Shown here in pieces: positions 28,328-28,617 of a DNA stretch of 34,126 bases. A program made the translations under genes and the position numbers. The DNA comes from Meiothermus sp. Pnk-1 (GTDB lineage: Bacteria; Deinococcota; Deinococci; Deinococcales; Thermaceae). How positions within the stretch are numbered: the first letter of the stretch is position 1; each line of letters opens with the position of its first letter. The notes under the pieces are model-generated. The model was not told the DNA's origin. It did no database searches and saw only the letters and a program-made list of their open reading frames with translations. The stretch is taken from contig NZ_QKOB01000020.1 of NCBI RefSeq assembly GCF_003226535.1, positions 1 to 34,126 on the forward strand, written 5' to 3'.

Positions 28328-28617
28328 GGAAGGGGTACCAAGGCTGTGGATAACTCTGTGGATAAGCTGTGGATAACCCTGTGGATAAGGCTGTGGATAA
28401 AGCTGGGGAAAAGTGGCCTGTGGACAACACCCAGAGTTATTCACAGGTTATCCACAGGAAGGGGTGGGTTATCCACAGGAGTTATCCACAAGCAGTTTTC
28501 GATAACCATCCACTTTTAAGGAGTTTTCCACACTATCCACAGGCCCTACTACTACTACTACTATCTTTTAAAAATCTTTAAGAGAAGGAGATAGTTTTTT
28601 AAGGAGGCTAAGCGCAA
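28328..28617. other. oriC: Chromosomal replication origin oriC
   Basis: The 290-base gap between dnaA and dnaN holds twelve DnaA boxes. Five perfect TGTGGATAA (28345, 28357, 28368, 28380, 28392) and one TGTGGACAA (28419) face one way. TTATTCACA (28437), three perfect TTATCCACA (28448, 28469, 28482), TTTTCCACA (28524) and CTATCCACA (28533) face the other. A CTA repeat and an AT-rich stretch follow on the dnaN side. Box sequence, number and location match a Thermus-type origin. Confidence 0.95.
28533..28600. promoter_or_regulatory. Basal unwinding system: DnaA box, DnaA-trios and AT-rich DUE
   Basis: CTATCCACA (28533-28541) is followed by a GC-rich GGCC. Six perfect CTA triplets come next (28546-28563), read on the other strand as 3'-GAT repeats. 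An AT-rich stretch follows (28564-28600, TCTTTTAAAAATCTTTAA and onward). This order of box, GC-rich spacer, trios and DUE is the basal origin unwinding element described for bacterial oriC, in which DnaA assembles on one strand from the box into the trios. Opening should therefore start here and spread toward dnaN. Confidence 0.85.

Follow-up and report, generated by a model that had tools for sequence, protein, structure and literature searches.

Introduction

In the Basal Unwinding System (BUS) of the Bacillus subtilis oriC/incC, tandem DnaA boxes (DnaA-boxes 6 and 7) are followed by a short GC-rich spacer, six DnaA-trios on a single strand and an AT-rich tract, all set between dnaA and dnaN and read by a DnaA with the single-stranded DNA-binding residues Asn187 and Ile190. 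At the middle of a trio, C can stand in for A but G and T cannot, since the amine of C makes contact with Asn187 (PMC10721633). DnaD is believed to guide the second helicase on the strand across from the trios (PMC10201434; PMC13326638), and a plus-strand signal complementary to the trios and recognized by DnaD, the DnaD recognition element, has been proposed to direct it there (PMC10201434).

BUS elements have been predicted in 85% of 2070 origins (PMC8287927), and Ori-Finder annotates trios routinely. The nearest relative of the bacterium considered here with in vitro unwinding data is Deinococcus radiodurans, whose DnaA needs both boxes and trios for origin opening (PMC8287927); we compare the two by the published description. 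In another thermophile, Thermotoga maritima, the trio that has been annotated plays only a supporting part, and the essential element is a triple TAG located distally to it on the same strand (eTrio; PMC10316083); the role known from B. subtilis therefore need not extend to every trio. Neither trios in the Thermaceae nor opposed trio arrays are described in the open-access papers that we searched. An oriC of Thermus thermophilus with 13 boxes was reportedly described around 2000.

Here we analyze a 34,126-nt stretch, hereafter the window (positions 1 to 34,126, forward strand, of contig NZ_QKOB01000020.1, assembly GCF_003226535.1), and the origin that it contains. Like the B. subtilis BUS, the window has tandem boxes, a short GC-rich spacer, six single-strand trios with an AT-rich tract beyond them, the dnaA–dnaN setting and equivalents of Asn187 and Ile190. 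Unlike B. subtilis, it has six GAT trios, its twelve boxes form two opposed clusters whose spacing is fixed, and its genome encodes DciA instead, with no DnaD homologue found. As in T. maritima, a triple TAG repeat lies beside the DnaA-box region, but the window trios begin 4 nt from the box. The same architecture is shared by all 28 Thermus-type genomes, the group of T. thermophilus, with up to 13 boxes at fixed positions. The window is a very clean example of an origin-opening module that is already known and broadly conserved; anything new would lie solely in a possible opposed array of Thermus.

Materials and methods

Origins were located in 50 Thermaceae genomes via DnaN, one genome per species (28 Thermus-type and 22 from the Meiothermus group), and 12 origins from other families of the same order were added, for a comparison set of 62; these relatives are not independent, and counts are given without phylogenetic correction. 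The DnaN search across relatives also matched Calidithermus, Meiothermus and Thermus species records. BUS elements were sought with the pattern TCCACA-N4-YTAYTAYTA, and the reversed pattern served as control. DnaA residue numbers (Asn187/Ile190) were assigned by counting along the alignment with B. subtilis DnaA (8btg). For the middle-base test of the second, opposed array (array B), the register was chosen without using the middle base.

Results

Anatomy of the origin

The features of the dnaA–dnaN interval are collected in Table 1. The interval holds 12 DnaA boxes within 197 bp, 8 of them perfect and 4 with one mismatch. Across the whole window only 15 matches occur at one mismatch or fewer, against a chance expectation of 2.5, and 12 of these sit in the origin. 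The original prediction described six boxes in each direction, opposed and meeting near 28430; our scan likewise returns six and six, with the direction flipping between 28427 and 28437.

Table 1. Features of the origin region and its flanking genes in the window.
Feature	Position	Strand	Basis or remark
dnaA, 439 aa, TTG start as listed	27008..28327	+	phmmer to B. subtilis DnaA 8btg, E 8e-142
dnaA-side cluster, five perfect TGTGGATAA-type boxes 11-12 bp apart, starting at 28345, 28357, 28368, 28380 and 28392	28345..28400	-	relatives show same spacing
Sixth dnaA-side box, one mismatch, minus-strand reading TTGTCCACA	28419..28427	-	box scan
dnaN-side TTATCCACA-type boxes: 28437 TTATTCACA (one mismatch); 28448, 28469 and 28482 perfect TTATCCACA	28437..28490	+	
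Box-free gap between box clusters and BUS boxes	28491..28523	.	near-fixed length
Tandem BUS boxes TTTTCCACA-CTATCCACA, gapless, one mismatch each	28524..28541	+	starts 28524, 28533
GC-rich 4-nt spacer GGCC	28542..28545	.	4 nt in 50/50 Thermaceae
Array A, six DnaA-trios 3'-GAT-5' (plus strand: CTA x6)	28546..28563	-	exact triplets
Lowest-stability 50 bp in the 34-kb window, predicted to unwind; takes in the AT-rich tract	28553..28602	.	nearest-neighbour stability
Array B, four trio-like triplets (minus-strand reading CTC CTT CTC TTA)	28579..28590	+	weak; score matched by 5% of shuffles
AAGGAGG, probable dnaN ribosome-binding site	28601..28607	+	sequence
dnaN	28618..29718	+	downstream neighbour of origin

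The last box, CTATCCACA (28533-28541), is followed by GGCC and six exact CTA triplets, just as the original prediction had read it, and then by TCTTTTAAAAATCTTTAA; the 50 bp that begin at 28553, within the trios, are the least stable of the window. The cumulative GC skew reaches its minimum at the dnaA–dnaN interval. Boxes, trios, skew minimum and least stable DNA coincide at one place, in support of the earlier placement of an oriC with DnaA-trios between these two genes. The (CTA)6 run occurs only once in the 3.5-Mb genome, and blastn returned no plasmid copies of the window origin.

A BUS is recognized by one or two adjacent DnaA boxes (the better one with at most two mismatches), a spacer of at most 16 bp (with the distance from the better box peaking at 10-13 bp), three or more NAN trios in a row, and a DnaA that keeps the residues Asn187 and Ile190 of B. 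subtilis. In the window, TTTTCCACA and CTATCCACA lie side by side, the trios begin 4 bp from the proximal and 13 bp from the upstream box, all six trios are 3'-GAT-5', and FTNELI of the encoded DnaA aligns with FTNEFI of 8btg. We conclude that the locus very probably serves an Allomeiothermus/Meiothermus-type bacterium as its chromosomal oriC, with a BUS that would open as proposed below.

Conservation of the layout across the family

The arrangement of box, box, 4 nt and six trios recurs in 50/50 Thermaceae origins with zero indels, and in 48 of the 50 it lies upstream of dnaN; the two others, G015 and G019, carry it elsewhere. TCCACA-N4-YTAYTAYTA has exactly one match in almost every Thermaceae genome, compared with 0-1 for the reversed control. 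In 27 Thermus genomes the box positions are base-for-base identical, with boxes occasionally below threshold: counted from trio 1, they stand at -222, -211, -199, -178, -166, -155 and -127 in one direction and at -110, -99, -78, -65, -21 and -13 in the other. The boxes that other Thermaceae genera share lie within 1-2 bp of these positions. Fixed box positions, together with a BUS free of indels, indicate that the layout is one rigid structure. Judged from these alignments, opposed box clusters belong to the fixed traits of the family and are no peculiarity of the window genome.

Two further observations concern the surroundings of the BUS. The box-free gap (28491-28523 in the window) holds a conserved sequence that differs between the groups: TTCGATA in the Meiothermus group, another one in Thermus. 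In G015, a Meiothermus genome, the origin lies about 10 kb from dnaN and in the opposite orientation (G015:C2:512443 and 501650), so the origin moves independently of dnaN.

A perfect triplet repeat that occurs once in a genome could also be a neutral trinucleotide microsatellite that came to lie beside oriC by chance, and the original prediction had named an absent or microsatellite-like CTA run in close relatives as an outcome that would speak against it. Aligned Meiothermus- and Thermus-type origins instead keep the triplet spacing, one of the outcomes that the prediction had named as support. The run has the same length, with six triplets in 50/50 Thermaceae and zero indels both there and in the 12 origins from other families of the order; it varies by substitution, and the middle position on the trio strand never becomes G or T. 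The sister species, for example, reads CTA CTA TTA CTA CTA CTA, with a single TTA. With zero indels across 50 Thermaceae, the CTA run is no slipping microsatellite. Variation in repeat number, the mark of such a repeat, is refuted at the species level, and we regard a chance microsatellite as extremely improbable. The earlier description of the array as unusually regular needs qualification: all six triplets are indeed exact in the window, but the identical array is found in 7/62 origins and is therefore not special to this genome. The trio arrays of Thermus are degenerate in 28/28 genomes.

The middle base of the trios

Read 3' to 5' on the trio strand, the 372 trios from 62 origins have A in the middle 321 times and C 51 times but never G or T, a rule that is unbiased only for trios 4-6, since the search pattern demanded T at the middle of trios 1-3. 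For trios 4-6 of the Thermaceae, the 150 middle bases comprise 108 A, 42 C and again 0 G/T. Directly after array A, the next in-frame triplet has a G or T in the middle in 24/62 origins. A middle base restricted to A and C, together with the Asn187 kept in the window DnaA, lends natural support to the published amine-capture model.

In Thermus the middle base of trio 4 is C in 27/28 genomes and that of trio 6 in 13/28, and the Meiothermus group has no middle C; middle C at trio 4 and a strong array B distinguish Thermus from the window, which has neither. Among 35 distinct arrays, middle-C trios fall mostly at the even positions 4 and 6 (14 and 8 arrays, respectively). One guess is that middle C tunes stability in hotter, more GC-rich genomes.

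A second array on the opposite strand

Beyond the AT-rich tract, the 28 Thermus origins carry array B, a run of at least four consecutive trio-like triplets in minus-strand reading at about +41 to +63; on the other strand, at least the three consecutive NAN triplets asked of a BUS are present in 28/28, and the window holds four. In all 28, array B outscores at least 90% of shuffles of its own region, and most outscore every shuffle. The middle base in minus-strand reading is T in 89%, G in 8%, A in 3% and C in 0%, as compared with 59, 8, 20 and 13% in shuffles, so that the trio strand offers A or C in 97%. TAGTA is present in 22/28 of the 30-base windows that hold Thermus array B and absent from 43 kb of upstream sequence, mostly dnaA. 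Column conservation reaches 0.8-0.9 in array B and 0.2-0.3 in the gap that separates it from array A.

Outside Thermus the signal fades. Array B is weak in the Meiothermus group, where 18/22 genomes have a shuffle fraction below 0.1 and the middle T reaches 61% vs 51% in shuffles, and it is absent or weak in most outgroups. The window copy includes a 1-nt shift: a CTA at 28592-28594 follows the four triplets after one extra base. No DnaA box faces array B within 16 bp, the best candidates having 3-5 mismatches and being no better than shuffles, and array B is for this reason not a second BUS.

Arrays A and B could be the arms of a selected hairpin, as a cruciform or in RNA, given inverted repeats of 13 bp in G037, 11 bp in G032 and 7 bp (ACTATCT/AGATAGT) in the window. 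Pairing a species' own arms, however, yields hardly longer repeats than pairing arms swapped between species (7.23 vs 6.96 bp in Thermus, p 0.10; 5.50 vs 5.44 in the Meiothermus group, p 0.36), and DNA-fold energies are alike for own and swapped arms. An apparent compensatory covariation vanished on swapping. Without A–B covariation across species, a hairpin is not what is kept, and we consider it very improbable.

Array B could be a landing site for DnaA on the displaced strand or an element of the dnaN leader. As a DnaA-trio array of the second strand it would hold DnaA on the displaced strand and mark the site of the second helicase, doing the job of the DnaD recognition element without DnaD. 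The trio-like triplets of all 28 Thermus origins, nearly all above shuffles, the A or C middle base, the TAGTA enrichment, the conservation that contrasts with the gap and the lack of arm covariation, which removes a selected hairpin, all favor this function, as does G015, which keeps a strong array B with dnaN about 10 kb off on the other strand. Against it stand the Meiothermus-group middle base, which is not clearly different from shuffles, the shifted window copy with its 5% shuffle support, the missing facing box and the weakness or absence in most outgroups. In Thermus, moreover, array B always abuts the dnaN ribosome-binding site. On balance, we consider a second-strand trio array rather unlikely.

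That same proximity suggests an element of the dnaN leader, acting in translation or as a promoter and outside origin function: in Thermus, array B ends within about 10 nt of the dnaN AGGAGG, and most Meiothermus, with dnaN farther off, have a weaker copy. Yet a leader would not be expected to show three-base periodicity with an amine-bearing middle base, in Allomeiothermus and Calidithermus dnaN is equally close while array B is weak, and the array stays strong in G015 after dnaN has moved away. We hold a role in the dnaN leader to be possible, if short of likely.

Replication genes and other box clusters in the genome

The genome encodes DciA, and a search for a DnaD/DnaB-type PF07261 protein found none in it, with B. 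subtilis and L. lactis controls positive. Matches of the IstB/DnaC type comprise DnaA itself, a protein of a replication module on contig C2 and two weaker ones in frames of 644 and 832 codons. That module (G000:C2:200627-204865) consists of a 381-aa phage-replication-initiator-like protein, a loader of the DnaC/IstB type (258 aa) and a second DnaN (42% identical), and it resembles the replication module of a mobile element that brings a clamp of its own. Yet another DnaN paralogue, the third (39% identical), lies at G000:C10:42575-43624, and divergent second clamps are also found in several relatives.

Two other loci drew attention. At G000:C1:186678-186761, outside oriC, three perfect DnaA boxes and one with one mismatch lie on one strand; the cluster is kept in the sister genome (90% over 173 bases) and is possibly a DnaA reservoir or a regulatory site. 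At G000:C2:303300-304700, frames translate to the repeats 'NPLTGLFVCD' and 'VANKKPRKGIA' and two DnaA-box-like sites face each other; the repeats look like a CRISPR array read as protein.

Discussion

In the best reading of the origin, the DnaA-trios lie on the minus strand and the duplex would open rightwards: beginning at the last box, opening would proceed in the direction of dnaN and enter the AT-rich tract. By analogy with the work on B. subtilis and D. radiodurans, from which DnaA binding, polarity and opening are carried over, DnaA would bind both opposed box clusters, and DnaA-ATP would pass from the tandem boxes at 28524-28541 onto the minus strand. There it would assemble 3' to 5', that is, rightwards, on exactly six trios, with the equivalent of Asn187 capturing each middle base. 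Stretching by DnaA would then open the duplex over roughly 28546-28600, well into the AT-rich tract, and helicase loading would follow, probably with DciA.

Thermus array B would serve the same need as the DnaD recognition element of B. subtilis, which is the complement of the trios and requires DnaD as its reader, a protein that the PF07261 search did not find in the window genome. Joined into one picture for the Thermaceae, clearest in Thermus, opposed trio arrays on both strands would flank the AT tract; through the second, DnaA would keep hold of the displaced strand and position the second helicase without DnaD, and the change from A to C at the middle of trios 4 and 6 would tune stability while keeping the amine. 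This full scenario is speculative, and we judge it unlikely as a whole.

The trios of the Thermaceae amount to an evolutionary test of how DnaA reads single-stranded DNA, and they agree with the amine rule derived from mutations in B. subtilis. For bacteria without DnaD, the opposed array of Thermus, should it be real, brings the placement of the second helicase on the other strand within reach of experiment in a thermophile with tractable genetics.
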